This document shows, piece by piece, positions 8,944 through 60,362 of a stretch of 64,000 nt of DNA (within the stretch, counting starts at the first letter, position 1; every line of letters starts with the position of its first letter). The DNA comes from Pseudomonadota bacterium (lineage in GTDB: Bacteria > Pseudomonadota > Gammaproteobacteria > Burkholderiales > Rhodocyclaceae). The translations under genes were made by a program, and so were the position numbers. Location of the stretch: assembly GCA_029776255.1 (NCBI GenBank), contig JAKOTN010000097.1, positions 34,523 through 98,522 on the forward strand. The letters run 5' to 3'. The notes below the pieces were generated by a model, which was not told the DNA's origin, did not search any database, and saw nothing but the letters and a program-made list of their open reading frames with translations.

Positions 8944-10695
8944 ATGGCGAAAACGACGATGAAACGATTGGTGATGGTTGTTATTTCTTGCCTGTTATCG
9001 CTCAACGCGGAGGCCACGTTCGACGCCGCGATAGCCGCGGCGATTCGGCAGGCGCAAGCGGAGCGCGATAACCCGCAGGCCGACAGTCTGGGGCCCAGTA
9101 TCTGGCAAGCGGCCGATCGCGGTGATCGTGCCGCCATCGACCGCTTTCTGGCGGAGGGCGTCAACGTCGACGCCAAATTTCCCGGCGGCACGGCGCGGCA
9201 GGCGGTTCCCGGGGGAACGCCGCTGCTTTTCGCCTTGAGAAGAAAGCGGCTGGCCACCGTGGAATTTCTCCTTGACCGGGGTGCCGACCCCAACGGCGCG
9301 ACAAGCGACGGTTATTCGGCGTTGCATTATGCGTTTTGGGCCGGCCTTGCCGAGGACAAAAGCAGTTCAGACTACGACGGGCGTTTTTTGCGCGTGTTGC
9401 TAGACCGCGGCGCGGCCATCGATGCCCGCGTTCCCCATCGCGACAGCGTGCTGATGCTGATCAGCGGCCATTCCCCGGCGCAGCCAGAAGCACTGCGAAC
9501 GCTTCTTGCCTATCGTCCCGATGTTAACCGGCGTCAACCACCGAACTGCGAGACCGCTTTTTATCGCTTGGTATCGGAAACGCGCGGTCTGCCAGTGGCC
9601 AAAGAGCAGGCGTTGAAACTGTTGCTGACTGCCGGTGCGAATCCAAATGCCAATCTGGCCGGCAGTGGCTACCACGGGGTCGGTGGCGGCAGGGACGGTT
9701 GGTCCTACGCGCACTACCGGACGCCCTTGCTCCGTGCCGCCAATTTTCACGGTTACGCCGATGTCGGCACGACCGGCTACCAAACCGATCTTGCGGCCAA
9801 TGCCGAACTGGTTCGCTTCTTGCTGGACAACGGTGCCAATCCACGGTGGGGTGGCATCGGCGGACCGCACGACATCGACCGGGAGTGCCCGGATATCCCC
9901 GATGGACAGCCGGGAAGTTCCGGAACCGCCGCGCCGGAGTGGGTCGGCTTTCCTTTCACGCAGGCCAATCCCGCGCTGAGCGAATTGTTAGGCCGGACGG
10001 CGATTCATCGGGAAACATTCGACCGCGTTGTGGCGGCCGCACAGCCGATCCAGCCCGGTGAAATCGGTTTTCCGGCCGTACACGACATGTTGTCTTCCTA
10101 TCACCACCTGAAATATTACTTGAGTCGCGACAAGGATTCGCTGGCGGACGCGGAACGCTATCGCGCCACGGTGGCCCGCAAGGAAAATCTGGAACATGGC
10201 ATGCGGAGCGTGTTGCGCCTGGGTGGGCGTGTCAACCCCGCCTTCGTCCGCTTGTCGACTGAAACGGGCTGGCGCGATCTGTGGGAAACCGGTTTTTCTC
10301 CCGCCTTTGGTGGCGTGAGGCATCTGCCGCTTTACGAGCACGAAATGCCCGACGATCTCTACCGCGAATTCCTTGAAGCAGGCGCCAGTCCGGCGATCCG
10401 GCGTGACGAGGGCGGAATTTCCGGTGCCGATGTGTCGGTGATTCAATTCCTGATCCGCCGCAACGCGGCCAGCAAGCTGTCGCTGATCGGCGACCACCTC
10501 GGCCTGCTCGAACGTCTGCCGACCTGGTGCCGCCGGACGGCAAAGGGGATCGCCGAGGAACTTGCCGCGCGATCGACGGCCAAGTCCGCCGACGCCTCGT
10601 TCGGCGAGACTGACCGGGAGGCGGGGAAAATACTACGGACTCTACTGCGCAGTTCGGGGTGCAGGGATGTGATTGGAAACGTTCGTTTGCCATGA
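8944..10695 (+). CDS. Secreted ankyrin-repeat protein
   Basis: Signal peptide; ankyrin units GTPLLFALRRKRLATVEFLLDRGADPNGATSDGYSALHYAFWAGL..., LLLTAGANPNANL... Confidence 0.8.
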   Translation: MAKTTMKRLVMVVISCLLSLNAEATFDAAIAAAIRQAQAERDNPQADSLGPSIWQAADRGDRAAIDRFLAEGVNVDAKFPGGTARQAVPGGTPLLFALRRKRLATVEFLLDRGADPNGATSDGYSALHYAFWAGLAEDKSSSDYDGRFLRVLLDRGAAIDARVPHRDSVLMLISGHSPAQPEALRTLLAYRPDVNRRQPPNCETAFYRLVSETRGLPVAKEQALKLLLTAGANPNANLAGSGYHGVGGGRDGWSYAHYRTPLLRAANFHGYADVGTTGYQTDLAANAELVRFLLDNGANPRWGGIGGPHDIDRECPDIPDGQPGSSGTAAPEWVGFPFTQANPALSELLGRTAIHRETFDRVVAAAQPIQPGEIGFPAVHDMLSSYHHLKYYLSRDKDSLADAERYRATVARKENLEHGMRSVLRLGGRVNPAFVRLSTETGWRDLWETGFSPAFGGVRHLPLYEHEMPDDLYREFLEAGASPAIRRDEGGISGADVSVIQFLIRRNAASKLSLIGDHLGLLERLPTWCRRTAKGIAEELAARSTAKSADASFGETDREAGKILRTLLRSSGCRDVIGNVRLP

Positions 10696-10716
10696 GTATC
10701 TGATTTGTATTAGTAT
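10687..10716 (+). promoter_or_regulatory. Candidate sigma70-type promoter (TTGCCA-N18-TAGTAT) for rtcB-prfH
   Basis: Read by eye; overlaps the end of the ankyrin gene; would give a ~170-nt leader before rtcB. Confidence 0.35.
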
Positions 10717-10759
10717 CCGTGCTCTTTTTCCACACTCGACTTGCAAGGGAGGTCGCACC

Positions 10760-10801
10760 ATGTTTCGCCATAGCACCCTTTGCAGGTCCCGCCTGGCTTA
10801 A
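10760..10801 (+). CDS. Putative 13-aa leader peptide MFRHSTLCRSRLA*
   Basis: ATG...TAA with strong SD AAGGGAGG 7 nt upstream; immediately precedes terminator-like hairpin and rtcB. Confidence 0.4.
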   Translation: MFRHSTLCRSRLA

Positions 10802-10810
10802 ATTCTCGGC

Positions 10811-10839
10811 GCCGCCCATGTGGTGGCGGCCTCTTTTTT
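10811..10839 (+). terminator. Intrinsic terminator/attenuator hairpin GCCGCC-N8-GGCGGC followed by CTCTTTTTT
   Basis: GC stem and T6 tract, 55 nt upstream of the rtcB start. Confidence 0.6.
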
Positions 10840-10893
10840 CGCCCCGGCTTCGGCCTGCCAATTCATTTTTTCCATTTTTTCATGGATTGGTAC

Positions 10894-12033
10894 ATGGGCA
10901 ATTCCATTCGGCATCTGACCGACGGCGTTTTCTTGATCGCCTCGGCACAAACTTGGATCGAAGGTCACGCGATCCAGCAATTACAAATTTCGGCACGACT
11001 CGAGGGGATGCGCTTGGTGGTCGGCATGCCCGACCTGCATCCCGGACGGGTTTATCCAGTGGGAGCGGCGTTTTTTTCCGTTGGCCGTTTCTACCCGGCG
11101 TTGGTCGGCAACGACATTGGTTGCGGCATGAGCCTATGGCGTACCACACTGGCGGGCCGCGGACTTTCAGCGGACAGGCTCGAGAAGCGTCTGGGCATGA
11201 TCGATGGTCCGTTACCGAGCGATCTTCGTACTTACATGGCCGGCGACGATCTCCCCGACACCGGTTTCGAGTCGTCGCTGGGGACGATTGGCGGCGGAAA
11301 TCATTTCGCTGAGTTGCAGCGAGTCGACGAAATTTACGAGCACGACACGCTGGCCGCCTTGGCGGTCGATCGGGAGCATTTGCTGCTGCTGGTGCATAGT
11401 GGCTCACGTGGCTTGGGGCAGCGGATTCTGACGGCACATGTCGAGCGTTATCGGCATGGTGGCCTCGTCGACGGCACGCTGGCCGGCGACGATTATCTTG
11501 AGCAACACGCATTGGCATTGCGTTTCGCTCACGTAAATCGCCGCTTGATCGCCTGGCGCATGCTCGAGAAATTGCGGGGCGACGGCGCGCCAATCGTCGA
11601 TCTCGATCACAATCTGTTGACCCCTGCCGAGATCAATGGTGAAAAGGGCTGGCTACACCGCAAGGGAGCAACGCCCACCGACGCCGGTTTACTCGTCGTT
11701 CCAGGTTCGCGCGGCGATTACAGCTATTTGGTCGAGCCTGTCGCCGACGCGGTCAGTCTCTACTCCGTGGCGCATGGTGCCGGGCGCAAGTGGATGCGTA
11801 GCGACTGCCGGGCGCGTTTGTCGGCTCGTTATGATTCGAGGCAACTGGCGCGTACCGCACTTGGTAGCCGTGTGGTGTGCAACGACAGGCGCCTACTGTT
11901 CGAAGAAGCTCCAGAGGCCTATAAACCGATCAGCAGTGTGATCGGTTCCTTGCGGGACGCGGGACTGGTTCGTCCGGTGGCGCGCTTGCGGCCGGTGCTG
12001 ACCTATAAAACGTGCGGCGAGGTGTGGCAATGA
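10894..12033 (+). CDS. rtcB: RNA ligase RtcB family protein (RtcB2 type)
   Basis: GMPDLHPGRVYPVGAAFFS, VGNDIGCGMSL, GTIGGGNHFAELQ, HSGSRGLG; coupled by ATGA overlap to prfH. Confidence 0.92.
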   Translation: MGNSIRHLTDGVFLIASAQTWIEGHAIQQLQISARLEGMRLVVGMPDLHPGRVYPVGAAFFSVGRFYPALVGNDIGCGMSLWRTTLAGRGLSADRLEKRLGMIDGPLPSDLRTYMAGDDLPDTGFESSLGTIGGGNHFAELQRVDEIYEHDTLAALAVDREHLLLLVHSGSRGLGQRILTAHVERYRHGGLVDGTLAGDDYLEQHALALRFAHVNRRLIAWRMLEKLRGDGAPIVDLDHNLLTPAEINGEKGWLHRKGATPTDAGLLVVPGSRGDYSYLVEPVADAVSLYSVAHGAGRKWMRSDCRARLSARYDSRQLARTALGSRVVCNDRRLLFEEAPEAYKPISSVIGSLRDAGLVRPVARLRPVLTYKTCGEVWQ

Positions 12034-12647
12034 TTTTATTGCAAATTTCAGCCGCAAGCGGTCCCCGGGAATGTGCGCTGGCGGTCGCCAAGACGCTTGG
12101 CCGTTTGTTGTACGAGGCCCGAACGTGCGCGGTCAACGTCGACGTGGTCGAACTTGTGCCGGGCGATGTCGGAGGAACGTTCCTTTCGGCATTGTTGACG
12201 CTCGATGGCGAGGCTGCGCCAAAGCTTGCTCGTCGATGGTGCGGGACCGTGCGGTGGATTTGCGCCAGTCCTTTTCGACCGCATCACGGTCGAAAAAACT
12301 GGTTTGTCGGTATCGCCGCTCATGCCGAGCCACCGCCAGCTGAAATGAGTGAAGTCCGCTTCGAAGCCTGTCGTGCCTCGGGGCCGGGCGGACAGCACGT
12401 TAACAAAACGGATTCGGCCATACGTGCCACACACCTTGCGACCGGTATCAGTGTCAAGGTGCAGGCACAACGCAGTCAGCACGCCAACAAGCGCTTGGCA
12501 ATGCTGCTGATCGAACAAAAGCTTGCCGAAACCGCGTCGCAAGCGGCGGAAGTACAGCGCGCGGTGCGGCGGCAGTTTCATCGCGATGTTGAGCGTGGTA
12601 ACGCGGGCCGGGTATTTCGAGGCGAGAATTTCGAACCCGTGCGGTAG
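12030..12647 (+). CDS. prfH: Peptide chain release factor homologue PrfH
   Basis: GGQ motif in RASGPGGQHVNKTDSAIRATHLATGISVKVQAQRSQHANKRLAM; ~205 aa; directly follows rtcB. Confidence 0.92.
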   Translation: MILLQISAASGPRECALAVAKTLGRLLYEARTCAVNVDVVELVPGDVGGTFLSALLTLDGEAAPKLARRWCGTVRWICASPFRPHHGRKNWFVGIAAHAEPPPAEMSEVRFEACRASGPGGQHVNKTDSAIRATHLATGISVKVQAQRSQHANKRLAMLLIEQKLAETASQAAEVQRAVRRQFHRDVERGNAGRVFRGENFEPVR

Positions 12648-12901
12648 TTTCATGGCAACGCCCAACGGTGGTGACAAGAGGCGTTAGGCGAAAATGCGCG
12701 GGTTTTCTAACGACGACGCGTATTCCGTAGGCATGGGCGCTTCCGCGCGGCCTTCTGTAATCGCATTGCTTGGAAATTTGGTTGATGGGGCGTTATTGAA
12801 AAAATCACCCAACCGTATCGGCAGGGCCGTGCGCTCGCCGACGAAAGACGGTTTTGGTGGGTGTTGACTGGCTGGGGCGTTTATTGACGGCTTCAGGCCA
12901 G

Positions 12902-13075
12902 TCACTTCCGGGTGCGCTGTTCTAGCAATTTGATTTCTTTCTTGTATTTCAGAATTTCCGCGTGAATTTTGCTTTGTTCGGCCATCGGGAGTATCGCCGT
13001 GTTCATCAGCTTGTCTTCAAGCTTTTGAATGCTGCTGACAAGATGTTTTATCTGTTCGTAGGGGGTCATGAACAT
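12902..13075 (-). CDS. Small hypothetical coiled-coil-like protein (57 aa)
   Basis: Manual translation MFMTPYEQIKHLVSSIQKLEDKLMNTAILPMAEQSKIHAEILKYKKEIKLLEQRTRK*; below the size cutoff of the ORF track. Confidence 0.4.
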   Translation of the reverse strand: MFMTPYEQIKHLVSSIQKLEDKLMNTAILPMAEQSKIHAEILKYKKEIKLLEQRTRK

Positions 13076-13381
13076 CGTGATCTCGCCTGTAAGGGTAAAT
13101 CGTACGGTAACTTCCGCAAATCCGATGATGCCTTGGTGAAGCCTCGTTGTCTATGAAATTTGATTTTTCCGATGACGGCGTTCAGGCGGGCGTCCGCGAG
13201 GAGGAAGGTCGCATTCCTGCTAAATAAGCAGTGCTCGGGAGACGGCTTGATGCCAAAACGTATCGACCGCGGCGAACCGGATGGTTGCGGTCGAGCCGCC
13301 TCGAGGTGTGTCGGGCTGGCGGCAACGACTTCAATTCTTGCGTGGTCAACGAGGAGGCTACCGACCAACGGCGTTGGCACG

Positions 13382-14065
13382 CTAGACGAGTTTCACGCGT
13401 ATCTCGCCGACGCCGCTTATCCCGGCGGTCAACACGTCGCCGCGGACGACCGTCGACACGCCCGCCGGGGTGCCGGTGAAAATCAGATCGCCGGGCGCCA
13501 GGGTGAGATAGGTCGAGAGATTGGCGATGACCTCGGCGACTTTCCACGACATTTGTTCAAGATCGCCATGCTGACGCGGCTCGCCGTTGACCTGCAACCA
13601 GATCGCTCCACGCCGGGGATGTCCGATGGCCGTTGCCGGCTGTAGATCGGCGATGGGCGCACTGTGATCGAATCCCTTGCCCATGTCCCAGGGGTGTCCC
13701 TTGTCCTTGGCCCGGAGTTGCAGATCGCGCCGGGTCAGATCCAGTCCGACGGCGTAGCCGAAGACACCGGCAAGCGCATCTTCCGGTCGAATGTTGGCGC
13801 CGCCCCGGCTCAGGGCGATGACCAACTCCACCTCGTGTTGCAGGTTGCCGGTGGCCGGCGGGTAGGGAACATTGCCGCCGCCCGGGACCAGCGCGTCTGC
13901 GGGTTTGCTGAAGAAAAACGGCGGCTCGCGCGTGTCGGCGCCCATTTCCGCCGCGTGATCGGCGTAGTTGCGGCCGACGCAGTAGACGCGGCGAACCGGG
14001 AAAATGGCATCGCTGCCGGCGACCGGAATGCCAACCGGCGCGGCTGGCGGAAAGACATATGGCAT
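13382..14065 (-). CDS. Fumarylacetoacetate hydrolase family protein
   Basis: VYCVGRNYADHAAEMG...PPFFFSKPADALV...HEVELVIALSRGG...GDLIFTGTPAGVSTV. Confidence 0.92.
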   Translation of the reverse strand: MPYVFPPAAPVGIPVAGSDAIFPVRRVYCVGRNYADHAAEMGADTREPPFFFSKPADALVPGGGNVPYPPATGNLQHEVELVIALSRGGANIRPEDALAGVFGYAVGLDLTRRDLQLRAKDKGHPWDMGKGFDHSAPIADLQPATAIGHPRRGAIWLQVNGEPRQHGDLEQMSWKVAEVIANLSTYLTLAPGDLIFTGTPAGVSTVVRGDVLTAGISGVGEIRVKLV

Positions 14066-46008: not shown

Positions 46009-46311
46009 TCAAGCAATCGCCGCCGGCAAGGCCGTCCAGACAATCCCCGTCGGCAGGCAGGCCCGCCCCAGACGCCCCTGAAAGCCGCGCGCCGGCAAGG
46101 GATAACAGCGCACATCGTCGGCCGCCGGCGCGATCAGAGCGGCAATCGCCGTCAGGCAGCGCACCTTGTCCGCCTCACCGCCGACCAGAAGGAAAACGCT
46201 GTACTCCAGCGGTGTCGCGTGCCGGCACATCTCGCGATGCACCCGTTGCAAGCGTGCCGGATCGGCGATGTCGTAGCCGATCACGAAACATAGCGACGCG
46301 TCAGAACGCAT
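46009..46311 (-). CDS. cas2: CRISPR-associated endonuclease Cas2 (second copy)
   Basis: VIGYDIADPARLQRVHREMCRHATPLEYSVFLLVGG; overlaps cas1 stop by 11 bp. Confidence 0.85.
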   Translation of the reverse strand: MRSDASLCFVIGYDIADPARLQRVHREMCRHATPLEYSVFLLVGGEADKVRCLTAIAALIAPAADDVRCYPLPARGFQGRLGRACLPTGIVWTALPAAIA

Positions 46312-47281
46312 CGTCGTTGGTCGCCGACGACACCGACGCGGCCACCGCGCCCGCCGCCATCACCGCCGACGCCACGTCGGCCACGCTGTCGGCCAGCCGC
46401 TTGCGCAAACGCGCCACCGGTTCCTCCCACTCCGCGTAAAAGCGCGTCCGGCCCGCCTTGCCCAACAGGCACGCGCCGGCCGCCAGCGAAAAATCGTCGG
46501 CGCGCAACTTCTCCGAACGAAACAGCATCAACACATGTTGCTCCACCTCCACCCGCAGCGGCTCCACCACATCGCAGGCCAGCGACTCGCGGCCGTAATC
46601 CAGGGCATGAAAAAAGCCCACGAAAGGGTCCAGCCCCGCCCCGTACAAGGCCAGCACCGCCTCCGCGTGCAACAGCGTATACCCCAGCGACAGCATCGCA
46701 TTCACCGGATCGCGCGGCGGACGCCGGTTGCGGCCGGCGAAATGCAGGCTTGCTGGCAGCAGATCGGCGAAACCCTCGAAATACGCCGCCGCGCCCGCGC
46801 CCTCCAGTCCGCGCAAGGCCGCCAGCGACGGCTGTGCATCCACCGCCTCGATCGCCGTCGCCAGGCGGCGCAAGGCCAGCGTCAACGGATAACGCGAACG
46901 CGGCTCGCTGTCGCGGCGACCGTCGAGAAACGCCGCCTGCGCGCGCAGCTTGCTCTCCACCACCGCCCGCGCGAAACGCAGGCAAAAATCGGCGTCCAGC
47001 GACAAACGGTACTGCGCCACCCGCCGCGCCGCGTCGTTGTGCGGCCGGCCGAGCAACAGCGTCGGCGCCGCCTTGCGGCCGGAAAGCACCACCACCCCGA
47101 TGCCGCGCTCGCCCAGCTTGCCAAGCAGCGCCGACGACACCGTCACATCGCCGCGCATGAACACCCGCGACAAGGGCGCCAACGGCACCGTGCCGACGCG
47201 CTCGCCATTTTCATAGAAGACCAGCGCCTCGCCATCCGCCTTCAGCGCCACCCCGCGCCGGTCGATATACAAACTGCTCAT
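46301..47281 (-). CDS. cas1: CRISPR-associated endonuclease Cas1
   Basis: MSSLYIDRRGVALKADGEALVFYE...GLEGAGAAAYFEGF...PVNAMLSLGYTLLHAEA...GFFHALDYGRESLACDVVEPLR (conserved E and H residues). Confidence 0.95.
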   Translation of the reverse strand: MSSLYIDRRGVALKADGEALVFYENGERVGTVPLAPLSRVFMRGDVTVSSALLGKLGERGIGVVVLSGRKAAPTLLLGRPHNDAARRVAQYRLSLDADFCLRFARAVVESKLRAQAAFLDGRRDSEPRSRYPLTLALRRLATAIEAVDAQPSLAALRGLEGAGAAAYFEGFADLLPASLHFAGRNRRPPRDPVNAMLSLGYTLLHAEAVLALYGAGLDPFVGFFHALDYGRESLACDVVEPLRVEVEQHVLMLFRSEKLRADDFSLAAGACLLGKAGRTRFYAEWEEPVARLRKRLADSVADVASAVMAAGAVAASVSSATNDDAF

Positions 47282-47298
47282 TCGCGCTCGCTCCTTGT

Positions 47299-47586
47299 TC
47301 AGACGATCAGGAAATACGTCGTTGGCGCTTCCGTGGCGCGGCCCAGCAACTCGCGCCGCATGCGCGGATCGAGCTGGAAGATGTGCGCCCGGTCCTCCTC
47401 CGGATTCAGCAATTCCGTCAATCGTCGCCGCACTTCCCGCAAATCCGCCGCCGTCAGCCAGCACTCGAAAAACGATTTCTGACCGCCGACCTTGTAGCCC
47501 AGCAAAAAGCGGTGCACCCGTCGCCAGCGTTTCGGATCGCCGACGTCGTAACAGATCAGATACAGGGTGCGTGCCACATCGTTCAT
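47299..47586 (-). CDS. cas2: CRISPR-associated endonuclease Cas2 (canonical copy)
   Basis: TLYLICYDVGDPKRWRRVHRFLLGYKVGGQKSFFECWL. Confidence 0.92.
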   Translation of the reverse strand: MNDVARTLYLICYDVGDPKRWRRVHRFLLGYKVGGQKSFFECWLTAADLREVRRRLTELLNPEEDRAHIFQLDPRMRRELLGRATEAPTTYFLIV

Positions 47587-47721
47587 GGCTTTCACGATAC
47601 GCCTGCCGTTTTCGCCGGTCAGAAACCACAAGCTTGCCGTTAGCGCTGCCTGCCGCCTTCCTTGCGGTCAACGGTCGGTTATCGGACAAAAAGAACGGAT
47701 CGAAAACTCGGCAAGAACCTT

Positions 47722-50482
47722 GCGTTAATCCCTTTGATTTCAGGGCTGATTACTGAGCACATCATCGCCTACGGATCGGCGCGCGACCTGAGGTCTTAAT
47801 CCCTTTGATTTCAGGGCTGATTACTGAGCCTATTTGGCGTTGGAATGATTGCGGAGATTGTAACGTCTTAATCCCTTTGATTTCAGGGCTGATTACTGAG
47901 ACCACTATTCGTCAAATCGCCTCCCAAAAAGAAGTCTTAATCCCTTTGATTTCAGGGCTGATTACTGAGAGGTATTATTCTTCAAGGTTGTAAGAATCCA
48001 GCGGTCTTAATCCCTTTGATTTTAGGGCTGATTACTGAGAATAAAATCTGGAAGCGAAGCGGCACATCAAACGGTCTTAATCCCTTTGATTTCAGGGCTG
48101 ATTACTGAGCGGCTAGTGACTTCAATAATACTAAGTTAAGTCTTAATCCCTTTGATTTCAGGGCTGATTACTGAGCCGAGACATGCTTGAACTCGAACTA
48201 GCCGCAGAGGTCTTAATCCCTTTGATTTCAGGGCTGATTACTGAGAGACAACACGAATATACAAAAAAGCGCATTCAACGTCTTAATCCCTTTGATTTCA
48301 GGGCTGATTACTGAGGGAGAAGTGCCATGCACACTAAACTGCAAAAGCTGTCTTAATCCCTTTGATTTCAGGGCTGATTACTGAGTGATCTTCGATGAAA
48401 TCGAGAAGGTCTTCCAGTGTCTTAATCCCTTTGATTTCAGGGCTGATTACTGAGGAACCAACTGGCACGGAGGCCAACCATGAAAAAAAGTCTTAATCCC
48501 TTTGATTTCAGGGCTGATTACTGAGCATGGGGATGATCAATTACCTAGCAAGGAGCTTGAGTCTTAATCCCTTTGATTTCAGGGCTGATTACTGAGGTCG
48601 CCGTCCATGCAAACATCATGCAATATCCGTCTTAATCCCTTTGATTTCAGGGCTGATTACTGAGTAAACGCCAGTACCGTATGGAGCGGCTTTGTCGGGT
48701 CTTAATCCCTTTGATTTCAGGGCTGATTACTGAGGCGAACAAGTACGCTACTCGCGCGTACTACATGCGGTCTTAATCCCTTTGATTTCAGGGCTGATTA
48801 CTGAGGTCGCGGGGTTGCTTAATATCCCCGGCCTTACCACGTCTTAATCCCTTTGATTTCAGGGCTGATTACTGAGACGCGAAGTACACGCAAAGCTTGG
48901 CCCAGGGGCGTCTTAATCCCTTTGATTTCAGGGCTGATTACTGAGCGACGCCGCCCGGCTTCTACAGCAGGCGGCACAAAGTCTTAATCCCTTTGATTTC
49001 AGGGCTGATTACTGAGCGCTTTGCATCGGCCTCGACCTGCTGTTTGTCTTAATCCCTTTGATTTCAGGGCTGATTACTGAGGTACCCCCAATTTTTTAAG
49101 GAGTGATCCACCATGAAGTCTTAATCCCTTTGATTTCAGGGCTGATTACTGAGACGCGGGGTTTGTCGAGGCGTGAGCGCATGGTCCGTCTTAATCCCTT
49201 TGATTTCAGGGCTGATTACTGAGGCGGCGGATGCCGTTATAAAACCGGCGTTGCGGTCTTAATCCCTTTGATTTCAGGGCTGATTACTGAGGACTTGCGC
49301 TCGACATCGCGACGTTGCGGATGGTCTTAATCCCTTTGATTTCAGGGCTGATTACTGAGAGACCGCCAGCAGAAACGGCGAACCTTTCGCCGGTCTTAAT
49401 CCCTTTGATTTCAGGGCTGATTACTGAGGCACAAAAACGGCGGCTCGTAACGCCTACCTGGGGTCTTAATCCCTTTGATTTCAGGGCTGATTACTGAGTG
49501 CGTTAGAAATGCGACGCACCAAGATCGCCCAAAGTCTTAATCCCTTTGATTTCAGGGCTGATTACTGAGGCACAGGAGCAAGACAATGAAAAACACCACC
49601 TTCGTCTTAATCCCTTTGATTTCAGGGCTGATTACTGAGAAAGCCACCATAGGTATAGACGGATGGTTGACCAGTCTTAATCCCTTTGATTTCAGGGCTG
49701 ATTACTGAGAACCGGCACCAAAGGGACCTTTTCCAGGCGGCGCAGTCTTAATCCCTTTGATTTCAGGGCTGATTACTGAGAAAAAGTCAGCGACGGAGGC
49801 GTTGGCAGCCGCCCGCGTCTTAATCCCTTTGATTTCAGGGCTGATTACTGAGGCGTCGGCGCGGCGGAGTTCTACAAGGCCGTTGGTCTTAATCCCTTTG
49901 ATTTCAGGGCTGATTACTGAGGCACTCGAACGACTCGTCGATCTGGCCGCACTTCGTCTTAATCCCTTTGATTTCAGGGCTGATTACTGAGAAAGCCGAA
50001 TATATCGAAGACGGCGACGGCTTCCGGTCTTAATCCCTTTGATTTCAGGGCTGATTACTGAGGTTGGTTGCACCATATACCCAACGGCGGAAGCCGGTCT
50101 TAATCCCTTTGATTTCAGGGCTGATTACTGAGATGGCCACCTCAAAGACATTCACCGTGCCCGACGGTCTTAATCCCTTTGATTTCAGGGCTGATTACTG
50201 AGTGCTCGCCGCGAATAACGCGCTTGTCGCCATGTCTTAATCCCTTTGATTTCAGGGCTGATTACTGAGGTCCTGATGGGGCACAACATGTCGGAGTTCG
50301 ACGTCTTAATCCCTTTGATTTCAGGGCTGATTACTGAGGCTCCGGCCTCTTGGAGTCGATCAAGGAAGACATCGTCTTAATCCCTTTGATTTCAGGGCTG
50401 ATTACTGAGAGCTGGCGACCTGGAAAAACCAGACCGCCAACCGCGCGTCTTAATCCCTTTGATTTCAGGGCTGATTACTGAG
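47722..50482 (-). CRISPR. CRISPR array: 40 repeats of 36 bp, 39 spacers of 29-37 bp
   Basis: Plus-strand repeat GTCTTAATCCCTTTGATTTCAGGGCTGATTACTGAG. Minus orientation CTCAGTAATCAG-CCCT-GAAATCAA-AGGG-ATTAAGAC ends in an 8-nt ATTAAGAC tag. First repeat (47722) degenerate (GCG for GTC); repeat at 48004 has one C to T change. Confidence 0.99.
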
Positions 50483-50495
50483 TGCGCTCGCTAGT

Positions 50496-51516
50496 TTACC
50501 TCTTTTTTTCAGTGGTTTGCGGTGACCGTTCGCGGTTTTCGACGGCGGGCGCGGCGATGTCCGCGCGGAGGGTTTCGGTGAGGGTGTAGCCGCCAAGGCC
50601 GAAGGCGGTTTCCTTGCCGACGTGCAGCCATTGTCCCAGGCGTAGGAAAGGGAGAAAGGGCGCCAGCGGGCCATGCAGCCGCCAGTTGCCGAGCGCGCCG
50701 CCGAGGCGCATTTCGCGCTGCTGCCGCGAGGAGTAGCGCCGCCAGTCGCGCCAGGCCAGATCTTTTTCGTCGACCACATCGGCCGCCGCCCGGCGAAGCG
50801 GGGAAAAGTCGTCGAGCAGGGGGCCGTCGCCATGGAACTCGGCGAGCAGGCTGGCGCGACGGGCCAGGGCGAGCAGCAGCGCGCGCGCTTGCAGCTTTTC
50901 CGGCGGCAGGGCGTGACCGTTGGCCTGCAGGCGCAAGGGGGTGGTGAAGCGCAGGGTGAGAGCGGTCGGCGCGGGGTCGGGCGCCTCCGGTGAGGGGGAT
51001 CGCGGGGCGGTGGACGGCGATGGCGCTGTTTTCCGGCCGGTGGATTTCCTGTTCGCCGTCGCTGCCGCAATGCAGCAGCCGGGTGAGTTCGGCGGTGCCG
51101 TCGCCGGCGCCGATGCCGCGCGCCAGGGCGCGCCGCCAGGCGAGGACGATCAGCGGCAGTTCCCGCAGGGCGCGACCGATCAGGACGTGATGAAAGTTCA
51201 GCGTGTCGCCGACGGCCAGCAGGCGGCTGCCCCAGGGGGGCGGCTCGATGACGTGGGGCACCGGGATGCTGTCGAAGCGTTGCAGTTTGTGGGCCGCCAC
51301 CGGCGCGGGCGGGGCGAAGATCGCGGGATAGGGGCAGGTGTCGAGCAGCGGGCAGCCGGGGCATTCCGGGCGACGGGCGATGCAGGCCAGTTGGCGCAGG
51401 GCGTGCCCGAAGGCGCCGCGCAACATCGAGCCGCCGTAATCCGGTAGCCGCAAGGGCCGGGTGACCCGGCATTCGAGACGGTAGCGGGCGACGGGGAAGG
51501 TGGTGGGCAGGTTCAT
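50496..51516 (-). pseudogene. cas6: CRISPR RAMP endoribonuclease Cas6, apparent 1-nt frameshift
   Basis: N-terminal frame MNLPTTFPVARYRLECRVTRPLRLPDYGGSMLRGAFG...ENSAIAVHRPAIP, then a different frame ...APTALTLRFTTPLRLQANG...LGQWLHVGKETAFGLGGYTLTETL. Removing one base of the C5 tract (plus-strand G5, 50994-50998) joins them into ~339 aa. Confidence 0.85.
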
Positions 51517-53150
51517 GTGGGTGTGCGCAGGGCGGCGAGTTTGAGTTTTTTCCGTTCGTCCTTGAGGTCTATCCGGACGACTCGCGGTAGCCAGTGCTCG
51601 ATGGCGTCGGCGGCGGCCAGCCGCTCGTCCAGGGGCCAGGCGGCGGCGTCGCGGGCCAACGCCCGGGCGAGACCGTGGAAGGTGGCGTTGGGATTTTCCT
51701 TGTTGCCGCGCAGTTGGTCGGCGCGGGCGGCGAAGTCGGCGGCGAATTGGGCGATGCGGCGGTGATTCGGCGTCATTGCCGCCAGTTCGCGCTGACGTTG
51801 TTCCTCGGCTTGCGCGGCGGCGCGCTCGGCGGCGGCGCTGGCTTCCTTCTCGGCGGCCCGCTGGGCGAGTCTGGCGGCGTGTTGGGCGAGTTTTTCTTCC
51901 CGGCGCGCCAGGCGGTCGCGGTGGTCTTCGAGCAGCGGCCGGCTGCGGCGGGCGAGTTTTTGGCGCACGGCGTCGGCAAGATGGCGGTGCCGGTCGTCGC
52001 AGGCGTCGATCCACAGCCAGCCGAAGGGCAGCAGGCTGCCGTCGCCGTGGCGAGTCGGGCTGGCGTAGCGGTTTTGGCTGGTGGTGGGGCGGAATTCGAA
52101 GGTTTGTTTGCCACCGACGCGCGGGCCGAGGATTTTGATGCGGCGCAAACCGTCGAGCGTCACCGATTCGGCGCCGGCGTGACGCCCGACGCGTAACAGA
52201 AAGCCTTGCCGGGCGGCGAGCAGTTCGCCGAGTTCGTTGCCCAACAGGTCGGCGATCAGCGCCGACCAGTTCTTGTCGAGGAGGTGACCGAGAACCGGGT
52301 GCCGGAGTTCTTGTTCCAAACGCGGGCGGTAGTAGGCGTTGCAGGCGTCGCACAAGGCGCGCCATGAAATTCTGGCGCCGGGGCCGAAACGCATCTCGCC
52401 GACGAAGGCGGTCGGCAGGGCCTCGGGAATGGTTTCGAGAAAGATTTTTAATTCCGAATTCGGGTCCTTGTCGCCGGGACGCGGCAGCCGCTTGCGCTTG
52501 CTGATGGCGTAGAGCACGCGGCCGGGTGGCGGGTTGTCGGCGTCTTCGGGGTTGGCGTCGGCCAGCGCCAGCAGGCGGAAGGGGTCGTTCTGGAATTCGC
52601 CGGCCCGGTAACCCAAAAGGCGTTGCTCGATGGTGGCGGCGGAGTTCTTGCCGGAGCGATCCTGCCAGTCGATATCGCTGTCGAGCGATTTCTGGTTCAG
52701 CCAGGCGGTGCGGATGCTGCCCTTGAGCGAACTGCCGGGCAGGTAGGGCGCGTTGTCGAGCGGCCGGTAGGCGGTGCGCGCCAGTTGGAAATTGTTGTAA
52801 GTGGCTTCGCCGTTCGGGTCGCGATGCGTCGGTTGTCCGATCTTGTCGGCGTATTCGCGGGCCAGCGCCGGCACGATGTCGACTTGATGGCGGGCGAGTT
52901 GGGCCAAGCCGGCCGCCGATTCACGGAAGAAGCGTTGAATGGCGCCGATGGGTTCGGCCTGCTCGGCGAGCCTGGCGAGTTGCCGGTGTTCTTTTTCGCT
53001 CAGGGCGTCGGCGAGATCGGCCGCGTCGAAGGCGTGCAGCAGGCCGTCGTGGATGACGAAGCCGCTGGGTTCGTAAACGTCGCCGCAGCCGATGTGCACC
53101 GGGGAAAGAGTGGAAATGGCCAGGACGCGGGTGGACGGGTGGGTGCTCAC
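51513..53150 (-). CDS. csm5: Type III-A RAMP protein Csm5 with long C-terminal extension (GTG start)
   Basis: LAISTLSPVHIGCGDVYEPSGFVIHDGLLHAFD...YLPGSSLKGSIRTAWLNQ. Confidence 0.9.
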   Translation of the reverse strand: MSTHPSTRVLAISTLSPVHIGCGDVYEPSGFVIHDGLLHAFDAADLADALSEKEHRQLARLAEQAEPIGAIQRFFRESAAGLAQLARHQVDIVPALAREYADKIGQPTHRDPNGEATYNNFQLARTAYRPLDNAPYLPGSSLKGSIRTAWLNQKSLDSDIDWQDRSGKNSAATIEQRLLGYRAGEFQNDPFRLLALADANPEDADNPPPGRVLYAISKRKRLPRPGDKDPNSELKIFLETIPEALPTAFVGEMRFGPGARISWRALCDACNAYYRPRLEQELRHPVLGHLLDKNWSALIADLLGNELGELLAARQGFLLRVGRHAGAESVTLDGLRRIKILGPRVGGKQTFEFRPTTSQNRYASPTRHGDGSLLPFGWLWIDACDDRHRHLADAVRQKLARRSRPLLEDHRDRLARREEKLAQHAARLAQRAAEKEASAAAERAAAQAEEQRQRELAAMTPNHRRIAQFAADFAARADQLRGNKENPNATFHGLARALARDAAAWPLDERLAAADAIEHWLPRVVRIDLKDERKKLKLAALRTPT

Positions 53151-54127
53151 GGTGTGTGCTCCAGGGCGATGGGAACGACGGGGCTGTAACCTTGGTGTAC
53201 GGTGGCGGTTTCGGCCTTGGAAAGCCGGCCGTCGCCACCGAGTCCCTGGCCGATGAACAGGCGTCGCCGCCAGCCGTCGGCCGGGGTGAACACGGCGCCG
53301 GTGGCGGCGAGCAGGATCGGGGTTTTGAACGGTTTTCCGGTCGTCGCCAGAATATTGCCGTGTCGGCCGAAGCGGGTCAGTACCCGCCAATAGCTGCGTT
53401 CGGCGGTGAAACCTTGCCCTTGCGGCGCGCACGGGGCGAGGGTCCAGTACGCGCTGGCGGCGGCCGGCGACGCGAAGGCGGCGGGTTGGAGGCTGTCGAC
53501 GGTGAATTTTCCGAGACCGACGCTGGCGTCGCGGCCATATCCGCCGTCGCCGAGCGCGGCCAACAGGGCGACGGTTTCCGCCGCGCTGACGCGCTGTTCG
53601 TCGAGAAGCAGGTAAAGGTCGATCTTCTGGTCGACGGCATGGTGGATTCGCGGCGCGGTGTAGGGAGCGAAGGCGCCCTCGCCGGTGGTGCCGCTCAGGC
53701 GATTGAGGGTGTTGTGCGCCTGGATGTCGTGTCGTGGCGCCTGGCCGCCGTAAGCGACGGTGTCGTCGTCGGCCACCCGCGGCATCGCCAGGAGGGTTTC
53801 GCCGGCATGCCGGCAGGCAATCCAGCGTTTTTGACGGTCGGCCTTGCGGCTGGCCTTGCAGGCGTCGGGGCCGGCGGCGAGATCGTCCAGGTGCCGTGGC
53901 AGGGTGGGACGCGGCAGGTAGCCGCTCGGGAAGCCGTCGGAGACGACCAGCCACGGCTTGCCGGTGGTGTAGCCGTCGAGGCGGCGTCGCAACTCGGCGT
54001 CGCCGGCGGTTTCACGCAAGGTCCAGCACAATTGACCGAAGAGGGTGTCGCCGGCCAGTGGCGTGCCGAGCGGCGTGCGCAGGGTCAGCGTGGCGCGGTG
54101 CAGGACGTGATGGGTGGCGTCGCTCAT
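53147..54127 (-). CDS. csm4: Type III-A RAMP protein Csm4
   Basis: HRATLTLRTPLGTPLAGDTLFGQLCWTLRE...GYGRDASVGLGKFTVD. Confidence 0.9.
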   Translation of the reverse strand: MSDATHHVLHRATLTLRTPLGTPLAGDTLFGQLCWTLRETAGDAELRRRLDGYTTGKPWLVVSDGFPSGYLPRPTLPRHLDDLAAGPDACKASRKADRQKRWIACRHAGETLLAMPRVADDDTVAYGGQAPRHDIQAHNTLNRLSGTTGEGAFAPYTAPRIHHAVDQKIDLYLLLDEQRVSAAETVALLAALGDGGYGRDASVGLGKFTVDSLQPAAFASPAAASAYWTLAPCAPQGQGFTAERSYWRVLTRFGRHGNILATTGKPFKTPILLAATGAVFTPADGWRRRLFIGQGLGGDGRLSKAETATVHQGYSPVVPIALEHTP

Positions 54128-54130
54128 GAT

Positions 54131-54841
54131 TCAGGCGACCGCGACGAAGGCGTCGATGGCGTCGAAGTCGGCCTGGATCGGACGGCCGTCGAGCGTCAGA
54201 TCGCGCAGGGCGAGCTTGCCGTAGCCGCGCGAGCCGGAGCCGCCGAGGCTGTCGGCTTCCAGCAGCTTGAGGCCGCGCAGCAGCAAGGGCAGCAATTCCT
54301 CGTCGTCGATCACTTTCAGCGACAGCCGGAAATCGAACTCGGCGCCGGCGATGACGCGCTCGATGAAGCGCGGGTCTTTGGCGACGCCGGCGATGCGATC
54401 GATGCGGTTTTCGCTCTTGGCTTCGGTGACCAGGAGGTGACGCGCTTCAAGGCTGGCCAGCCAGTCGGCGTTGAGCGCGCAATCCCAGAAGGCGATGCGG
54501 GTGGGGCCGATCGCTCTGACCAGATCCTCGACGTTGCCGCCGGGCGCGCCGCCGAACAGGCGCAGCAGGTCGCGCGCCGCCGGCGTGTCGTGCCGACGCA
54601 GGTGCTCGAAGGAGAAGGGCTGGCCGTTGGCGACGCCGACCAGCCCAAGCCGCCATTCGAGCAGCGAGCGGATCTTGCCCTTGAGCGAGGAACCGGGAAT
54701 GTAGGGCTTGTCGTTGAGCGGGTTCTTGATCACCGGGCTATCGGTGCCGCCGATGCGCATCTCGGTGTCGCCGGCGCCGATATGCAGGCCGCTTTTCAGG
54801 ACGAGGGTGGCGTTGAGTTGTTTGATCCGGGTGAGTTGCAT
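54131..54841 (-). CDS. csm3: Type III-A RAMP protein Csm3
   Basis: LVLKSGLHIGAGDTEMRIGGTDSPVIKNPLNDKPYIPGSSLKGKIRSLLEW. Confidence 0.94.
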   Translation of the reverse strand: MQLTRIKQLNATLVLKSGLHIGAGDTEMRIGGTDSPVIKNPLNDKPYIPGSSLKGKIRSLLEWRLGLVGVANGQPFSFEHLRRHDTPAARDLLRLFGGAPGGNVEDLVRAIGPTRIAFWDCALNADWLASLEARHLLVTEAKSENRIDRIAGVAKDPRFIERVIAGAEFDFRLSLKVIDDEELLPLLLRGLKLLEADSLGGSGSRGYGKLALRDLTLDGRPIQADFDAIDAFVAVA

Positions 54842-55318: not shown

Positions 55319-57946
55319 TCATTGGCGACGACGGTAGAGCAGCACCGATAACGGTAACCGATAGGCGCCCTTGTGGGCGTTGAGCGCGCCGCCGATTTCA
55401 CGGAGGGCGTCGGCGAGTAATTGGTCGCGGGATGCCGGCGCGCCACCGTTGCTCTTGATGCGTTCGCGGAAGAAGCGGCTGAGCCGGTAGTGAAGCCGCG
55501 AGCGCCAGATCGCGTCTCGCGGCGCCGTGCTCTCGGCCTTGTCGGCGAGATGCAGCAGGGTGTAGGCCAAGCCGCTGGAAAATGCCGCGTCGTGCTGGTC
55601 GGCACGGGCCATCAGCGCTTCGAGCGCCGCCAGCCGCGAGCCCAGCAGCGTGTGCCAGTCGCGCCAGGGGATGGCGTGCCGCCAGAGGCTGGCGGCGTTT
55701 TTACCGGGAAGGCGCTTGGCGTCGTGCAGGGCTTTCTCGGCGCTGCGCGCGAGATGGCGGACCGGGGTTCGCGGGTGGGTCATGGTCAGACCGGCGGAGA
55801 AACTCAGGCGCGGGTTGGCGACGTAGGCGGAAAATTTCTCGCGTAGCTCGCCGGCCAGCGCGAGGGTGGATTCCCAGGGGCCGATCAGGAAGAAGTCGTC
55901 GCCGCCGGCGAAAACGGTATAGGTGTGCCGGTAGCGCGCGGTCTGACACGCGTCGTGTCCGTGCTCGCAATACCAGGGTAGCCAGAGCGCGAAAAAGGCG
56001 TTGATCTGTCGCGACAGCGAGGCCATTTTGGCGAAGGTGGGTTTTTCAAGGCCGTTCTGAAACATGTCACCGAGGTCGTCGATGTCGCCCTTGAGCGTCA
56101 GCAAGGCGATTTCGCCTTGCCAGCGCTCGCCGTCGGTCGGTCGGCGATCTTCGCAGGCAAGATGGTGCAAGGTCTTGATCTGCCCAGGAACGACGTCGTC
56201 TTGCCAGGCGCCGTATTTTTCGGCGGTGCGCACGTCTTCCGCGTCGAAACGCGGCACGTGGCTGTTGACGAAGCGCCGGGCGTAGCCGCGCCATACCCCG
56301 CCATCGGCGTCGGCGGCGTCGAAATCCCATGTCCGCAGCAAGGCGCCGTTGCGAACCAGTTCGCCGTATTGACCGGATTCGTCGGCGGCCGGAACGATCG
56401 CCAGTCGATAGCCGAAATAGTCGAGTCCCAGCGGCGAGGGTAGCGCGGTCGTGTGTCGCGCGACCAGCAGACGGGCTTTGCGCGTCAGTTCTTCGCCGAT
56501 GCGGATCTGGTCGTCGGCCAGGGTGGACAAGGCATACGCCCGGCGTGCGGAAGGCGCGGCGTCGGCTGGGTGCCTGCCGTTGATCCGGCAAACGCCGAGA
56601 GTGTTGTCGAAACGGTCGAGAAAGCCGTTGAAGACGCTGACGGTGTCGGCGGCGCAAAGGTCGAAACGCCGATGCTTGGCGACATCGAGGGCGGTAAACA
56701 GGCGTTGTTGTAACTCGCCGAAGCGGCCGGTGGAGAAATCGTCGCACGACGCCGGGGTGCTGGCCAGGCCGACGCCGATCTCGCCGTAGGCATGCTCGAG
56801 ACACCAGGCGTTGAGCTCTTGGCGGCAGCGGGCGACGGCGGCGCTCGCGTCGGCGGTGTTCGGCGCGACGATCAGGAACTTGCCGGCGGCGTTGATGATT
56901 TGCGCGCTCGGTGGCAGGGCGAGTGCGTCGAGCAGTTTGAGCGCCGCGCATTCGGCGAGCAGCGACACCTGGAAGGAACGGCCGCGCAGCAGTTTATGGG
57001 CGTTTTTTTGCGTTTCTCCACCTTCGGCGAAGATGAAGTTTTGAATGCCGAAAAAATCGCCCTGCACGAGCAGGATTTTGCTATCGCCCCACCCGTCGCG
57101 CAGATGGTGTACTTCTTCCGTGCCTCGCGCGCGGTGCCAGCGCCACAGCGCGGTGGCCAGCGCCGCCGTGGCCTTGCTGTGGTCGTACAGCGACACTTCC
57201 GGTTTTACGCCGAAGGCGGTGGCCGAGGGAATGGCATGCGTGACGGTGAGCCACAGGCTGTCGAAATGGTCGAGCCACAACGGCAGGTTGGCAAGGTGGG
57301 ATTTCGGGATGCGTCGCACGCCGTCGAGCAGCGCGTTCCACAAGGTCAGGTATTCGGTGCGGGCGTCGGCGTCATTGGACGGGGTGCACGCGCCGACGGT
57401 GCGGGGGAAGATGCCGTCAGGCGAGAGGGGCCGCAGCGGGTAACGCCATTCCAGTTCGCCTTCCTTGACGCCGGGCCGGTGGATCTGTTCGAGCAGGGTC
57501 AGCAGACGGGCACGGTAATGGTTGTCGCGTTCCTTGCTGTTGTTGTATGTCTTGACGAACTCGTCGCGTTCGAATCCCGAAGCCACGCGGTCGGCGGTGG
57601 CGACGATCCATTGCAGGAAGGTGTCGGGGCGGTGGTGCGCGCTGGCGGCGTTGACCGCCGAGTCGGTGGCCTTGCCGTCGGCGCCGGCAAACGGCGAACA
57701 GTCGCGGCGCAGATCGGGGAAATGACCGGTTGCCTCAAGGGCGTCCCAGGCCAGGGCCGTGTAAGCGGCGTGGATGTGGCTGTGGTGGCCGTCGGGTGAG
57801 TTGCCGTGCCGGTGCCACGGGCAGTATAGATTTTTGTGTGCGTCGAGCCGGCCGTCATGGTCAATGCCGGCGCGCTCGGCCAGCTTGCCGATGTCGTGCA
57901 TGAAGGCGGCCAGCGCGATGCGGGCCGATTCGTTCAAAAGTGTCAT
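55319..57946 (-). CDS. cas10: Type III-A Cas10/Csm1
   Basis: HD motif MHDIGKLAERAG; palm TVFAGGDDFFLIG; 875 aa. Confidence 0.95.
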   Translation of the reverse strand: MTLLNESARIALAAFMHDIGKLAERAGIDHDGRLDAHKNLYCPWHRHGNSPDGHHSHIHAAYTALAWDALEATGHFPDLRRDCSPFAGADGKATDSAVNAASAHHRPDTFLQWIVATADRVASGFERDEFVKTYNNSKERDNHYRARLLTLLEQIHRPGVKEGELEWRYPLRPLSPDGIFPRTVGACTPSNDADARTEYLTLWNALLDGVRRIPKSHLANLPLWLDHFDSLWLTVTHAIPSATAFGVKPEVSLYDHSKATAALATALWRWHRARGTEEVHHLRDGWGDSKILLVQGDFFGIQNFIFAEGGETQKNAHKLLRGRSFQVSLLAECAALKLLDALALPPSAQIINAAGKFLIVAPNTADASAAVARCRQELNAWCLEHAYGEIGVGLASTPASCDDFSTGRFGELQQRLFTALDVAKHRRFDLCAADTVSVFNGFLDRFDNTLGVCRINGRHPADAAPSARRAYALSTLADDQIRIGEELTRKARLLVARHTTALPSPLGLDYFGYRLAIVPAADESGQYGELVRNGALLRTWDFDAADADGGVWRGYARRFVNSHVPRFDAEDVRTAEKYGAWQDDVVPGQIKTLHHLACEDRRPTDGERWQGEIALLTLKGDIDDLGDMFQNGLEKPTFAKMASLSRQINAFFALWLPWYCEHGHDACQTARYRHTYTVFAGGDDFFLIGPWESTLALAGELREKFSAYVANPRLSFSAGLTMTHPRTPVRHLARSAEKALHDAKRLPGKNAASLWRHAIPWRDWHTLLGSRLAALEALMARADQHDAAFSSGLAYTLLHLADKAESTAPRDAIWRSRLHYRLSRFFRERIKSNGGAPASRDQLLADALREIGGALNAHKGAYRLPLSVLLYRRRQ

Positions 57947-57965
57947 GGTCGTCTGTTTCCTGGGT

Positions 57966-60362
<2,397 letters not shown>

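Follow-up and report, generated by a model that had tools for sequence, protein, structure and literature searches.

The 64-kb stretch of Rhodocyclaceae DNA analyzed here (the window) carries on its minus strand an array of clustered regularly interspaced short palindromic repeats (CRISPR; 47722-50482; 40 repeats of 36 nt, 39 spacers) immediately behind cas6 (50496-51516), and our subject is the leader of this array, which most probably lies for the greater part within the coding end of that gene. The system is type III-A, as judged from its genes csm5 (51513-52940; TIGR01899, scoring under its curated cut-off), csm4 (53147-54127; TIGR01903, above cut-off) and csm3 (54131-54841; TIGR02582, above cut-off), which stand upstream of cas6, all on the minus strand; a long reading frame at 55319-58357 sits where cas10 would be expected and is a cas10 candidate by position. 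At the other end of the array lie cas2a (47299-47586; TIGR01573/PF09827), cas1 (46301-47281; TIGR00287/PF01867) and cas2b (46009-46311; PF09827), likewise on the minus strand. This flanking of cas1 by two different cas2 genes (46009-47586) is also seen in most relatives.

The array begins 13 bp (50483-50495) from the cas6 stop codon (50496-50498, minus strand), as an earlier note on this DNA had described, and the A-rich string which that note placed across the end of the gene and the gap is present in the sequence. The leader-end repeat, the first of the array, occupies 50447-50482. The last repeat (47722-47757) is decayed, with two changes in its tag, which reads GCGTTAAT in place of GTCTTAAT, and the repeat at 48004, near the distal end, has one change, in agreement with the degenerate and variant copies recorded earlier. 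No other copies of the repeat were found in the genome, so that there is no second array to serve as a leader control. The earlier note treated cas6 as one gene, but its intact frame is not borne out: alignment to relatives places the N- and C-terminal halves in different frames, owing to a 1-nt length difference around 50985-50999, near a run of five G, and PF10040 is found on the C-terminal piece. Since the downstream half is free of stops, the frameshift reflects recent inactivation or else an error of assembly.

Cas6 searches of the genomes of the family and the genus, and of a public genome collection, gave about 80 related loci with flanks. They form two classes: class A, with an array start anywhere from -56 to +8 nt relative to the cas6 stop (the window has 13 nt), and class B, with 83 nt to 6 kb between cas6 and array. 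Adjacent, class A arrays occur in about 20 further loci from Accumulibacter, phosphorus-removing wastewater bacteria, and from other Betaproteobacteria. Their gene order is cas6-array, followed by cas2a-cas1-cas2b where the contig extends that far (these genes are inverted in L064), and the class B order is mostly cas6-cas2a-cas1-cas2b-leader-array. The adjacent state requires six changes on the Cas6 tree, at least five of them on well-supported branches; the array has therefore come to stand next to cas6 on several occasions, or on fewer that were followed by losses. The point at which the gene ends also varies. In L083, L091 and L092 the cas6 stop codon is built from the opening bases of the first repeat, and L073, whose contig stops inside the repeat, resembles them in this respect; in L079/L080 and L099 the stop falls within the first repeat, and in L096 the cas6 frame continues into the first spacer.

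For a scan of the window, a leader matrix was trained only on 32 stand-alone (class B) leaders from related type III arrays and applied to both strands, at 127,812 positions in all. The best match of all is a segment of about 95 nt on the minus strand, 50483-50577, which abuts the first repeat exactly and, beginning at 50496, doubles as the 3' end of cas6; it scores 17.8 bits versus 10.1 bits for the runner-up site. This site still ranks first once related clades are dropped from the training set, and control matrices built from -200, -400 and -600 do not recover it.

When the upstream sequences are aligned without gaps on the first repeat, GACATC near -79, CGAAC near -50 and CAA-N4-YTR near -38 are common to class A and to many class B loci. 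The window has GACATC at 50556-50561 (-79 to -74), a motif that relatives share at equal distance, including some with detached arrays, and GAAC, as part of CGAAC, at 50528-50531 (-49 to -46), where columns -50 to -47 are conserved. The third motif, CAAACCACTG at 50510-50519 (-37 to -28), has the form CAA-N4-YTR and resembles the core bound by integration host factor (IHF). Such a core starts between -40 and -36 in 18 of 20 class A and 19 of 32 class B leaders, with a background below 1%; the WAT part that belongs to the IHF consensus is unmatched in the window's IHF-like site. Four matches to the HU/IHF family are present. Altogether about 27 columns are conserved in the leaders versus none above 0.35 bits in 38 trailers. 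Promoter scores are raised in 9/20 class A and 20/32 class B leaders, and a standard sigma-70 scan gave nothing exceeding chance.

By its conserved upstream sequence in fixed register and by the intact repeats at this end of the array, the element is a CRISPR leader. We consider it highly probable that this leader comprises some 95 nt of the minus strand directly preceding the first repeat, most of them also the coding end of cas6, and that it works by the mechanism proposed below. The leader had previously been described as either absent or embedded in the 3' end of cas6; with motifs that match those of stand-alone leaders in register, embedding is supported and absence is not.

The leader DNA is also read as protein: the last codons of cas6 and its stop (50496-50585, minus strand) encode a C-terminal tail that is missing in most relatives with detached arrays. 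Class A Cas6 proteins carry a tail of 30-48 residues beyond a glycine-rich loop, and those of class B usually one of 4-9. Among the loci in which tail and array position could both be measured, 21 pair a long tail with an abutting array, 3 a long tail with a distant array and 24 a short tail with a distant array, and no locus combines a short tail with an abutting array (Fisher p 1.8e-10, a value that is too small because the loci are related). Codons were compared in 13 loci with tails of 31-32 residues (Accumulibacter, its nearest kin and L086). The ratio of divergence at codon position 3 to that at positions 1 and 2 is 0.99 for the tail, 2.46 for the body and 1.35 for the lowest body window, and the ratio of nonsynonymous to synonymous differences (pN/pS) is 0.90 for the tail versus 0.34. 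A structure model of the L097 Cas6 is confident as far as the glycine-rich loop and disordered beyond it. Judged by these substitution patterns, the comparison shows the Cas6 tail to be leader DNA that is translated in frame, with constraint acting on the DNA and not on the protein.

Transcription from the cas6 end, on the minus strand as had been claimed earlier, is supported by the decay of distal repeats, by antisense protospacers and by the lack of conservation on the cas2 side. The distal half holds 17 of the 18 decayed repeats seen in class A arrays. In Septimatrevirus and Titanvirus phages, the scaffold-protein gene contains an exact match to spacer 33 (49992-50026, minus strand), and spacer 38 (50339-50373, minus strand) matches exactly, over 35/35 positions, within an open frame of viral contig L159 that reads as a RecT-like candidate; viral contigs gave no exact match for three further spacers. 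Given minus-strand transcription of the array, the CRISPR RNAs (crRNAs) of spacers 33 and 38 would be antisense to phage mRNA, and the 3' flanks of both protospacers have no match to the tag complement. The strand of gene-start motifs within spacers agrees with this direction, with a ratio of mRNA side to crRNA side of 21:3 in class A and 19:1 in class B (shuffles gave about 5 and about 7, respectively). A template-strand bias has been reported for a type III system and ascribed to selection (review PMC9048733).

Spacers of the window array and of the L061-L140 arrays often lie in antisense orientation across a start codon and a ribosome-binding site. The scaffold-protein gene matched by spacer 33 is common to many siphophages of Pseudomonas, Stenotrophomonas and Rhodobacter, and this spacer could therefore cover phages of several genera. 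At their distal array ends, L068 and L142 have terminal repeats decayed in identical fashion and trailers that are almost the same, and share no spacers, as turnover from the cas6 end would lead one to expect.

Several observations weigh against the leader as it is placed here. With random half training sets, the window site ranked first in 12 of 30 draws and otherwise 2nd to 61st. In the relatives, the junction was the top site within 1.1 kb for about 12 of 21 loci and mostly the second elsewhere, and the matrix fails in L096, whose register shifts by two bases. The window's own promoter score is weak. Shared spacers between relatives (L068 versus L142/L143, and others) were not found and polar growth is not directly visible; because these relatives have no spacers in common, polarity rests on the other evidence. 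Lastly, cas6 is frameshifted in the window, and its Cas6 copy may be inactive as a consequence.

Taken across the loci, sequence comparison shows the identity of the leader, its register, its polarity and the DNA-level constraint on the Cas6 tail, and the competing accounts of the locus can be weighed on the same material. A leader on the cas2 side (47587-47721), with the array read on the plus strand, would follow the layout cas1-cas2-leader-array, and class B relatives do show the order cas2b-leader-array; the earlier note, seeing cas2 at the left, considered the gene layout to be in real conflict with a leader on the cas6 side. The conflict disappears because the cas2-side flank is an unconserved trailer devoid of leader features: it scores -29 bits, at rank 45,885 of the leader matrix, and none of its columns is conserved over 38 loci, and a leader there was rejected on these grounds. 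Moreover, the repeat at the cas2 end is decayed, the crRNAs would be sense rather than antisense to phage mRNA, and the orientation of the class B repeats also puts the leader at the end equivalent to the cas6 end here, all of which makes a cas2-side leader extremely improbable. Neither do we give much credit to the idea that there is no leader, the array being a relic or served only by read-through of the csm-cas6 operon and the upstream letters being conserved for the Cas6 protein. The gap of just 13 bp between gene and array, the frameshifted cas6 and the weak internal promoter would fit, but identical motifs at equal distance beside arrays kilobases from cas6, a tail lacking any codon-position signature and the uniformity of the recent repeats at the cas6 end render it very unlikely. 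A function for the Cas6 tail as a protein segment, for example in contacting the Csm complex, from which the shared letters would follow, is scarcely credible: its length is nearly equal in all 13 compared loci, but its pN/pS and codon positions carry no mark of protein constraint, it is predicted to be disordered, most relatives do without it, and its motifs match those of non-coding leaders.

The embedded leader itself leaves room for a neutral overlap, a by-product of the array having come to lie next to cas6 and of the gene having lost its former stop, with a tail that serves neither protein nor expression. At the protein level the tail lacks conservation, and L081 and L110, which have an early cas6 stop, retain the leader at a similar distance, as such a by-product would allow. 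On the other hand, the frame through the leader is open in 20/20 class A loci, against an expectation from composition of about 0.56 per locus, although this count is biased by the choice of class A, which was based on a stop close to the array, and the adjacent state is spread across several lineages. We regard the chances of a neutral overlap as evenly balanced.

Based on the leader as located above, we propose that Cas1-Cas2 would insert new spacers at 50482/50483, possibly assisted by IHF bending at the CAA-N4-YTR site. The precursor of the crRNAs would come from operon read-through via cas6, from a weak leader promoter, or from both, and cleavage of the first repeat by Cas6 would also trim the 3' end of the csm-cas6 mRNA. 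Of the earlier alternative, that the leader overlaps cas6 or that the array is read through from the csm operon, the overlap is supported, and read-through is likely as well, the gap being too short for a terminator; such read-through does not exclude an internal promoter. The overlap could further be functional: ribosomes that translate cas6 across the leader would sustain transcription into the array, and Cas6, by cleaving the first repeat, would feed back on its own mRNA. This extension we put forward tentatively and think rather unlikely. The presence of the cas6 stop codon within the first repeat of some relatives bears on this feedback. If the overlap is indeed functional, guide supply, Cas6 level and the site of spacer insertion would be coupled in one piece of DNA.

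The stand-alone leaders that related type III arrays of Betaproteobacteria possess (for example L085 from Nitrosomonas, L102 and L115) have like motifs at like distance and the same kind of repeat; they are found outside cas6, usually behind cas2b and kilobases off, whereas the window's leader is inside the 3' end of cas6. Type II-C arrays have a promoter in each repeat. They are alike in having control elements outside an ordinary separate leader, but the window has its leader in a gene and no obvious promoter in the repeat. Leaders are normally sought as non-coding DNA beside the array; this one, concealed within a gene across several lineages, would escape any search that leaves out coding sequence. 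In the IHF-dependent leaders of types I-E and I-F (PMC13034035, PMC12259127), a bendable CAA-N4-TTR-like core lies between the integration point and a second conserved upstream motif, and the window has a core of similar form so placed; unlike them, it has type III-A genes, a coding leader and a putative IHF site. No description of a leader inside a cas gene was met in the literature searched, although an earlier one is possible, as the survey PMC12171695 was not covered. The element is of a known kind, being a leader by the tests run, and its placement in a cas gene, beside a repeat that can end the gene, is undescribed in that literature. It offers a clean case of a single DNA segment that is both a protein end and an integration signal, and it accounts for a variable tail of Cas6 that might otherwise be mistaken for a feature of the protein. 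With it one can also test whether immunity is tuned by translation as far as the first repeat or by Cas6 cutting its own mRNA.

Two relatives show further irregularities around their repeats. In L061, the array (9158-13451) is broken up by two inserts of about 1.3-1.5 kb. In L086, lone repeat copies at 10117 and 11898 lie between the array and cas2, both with the identical single change.
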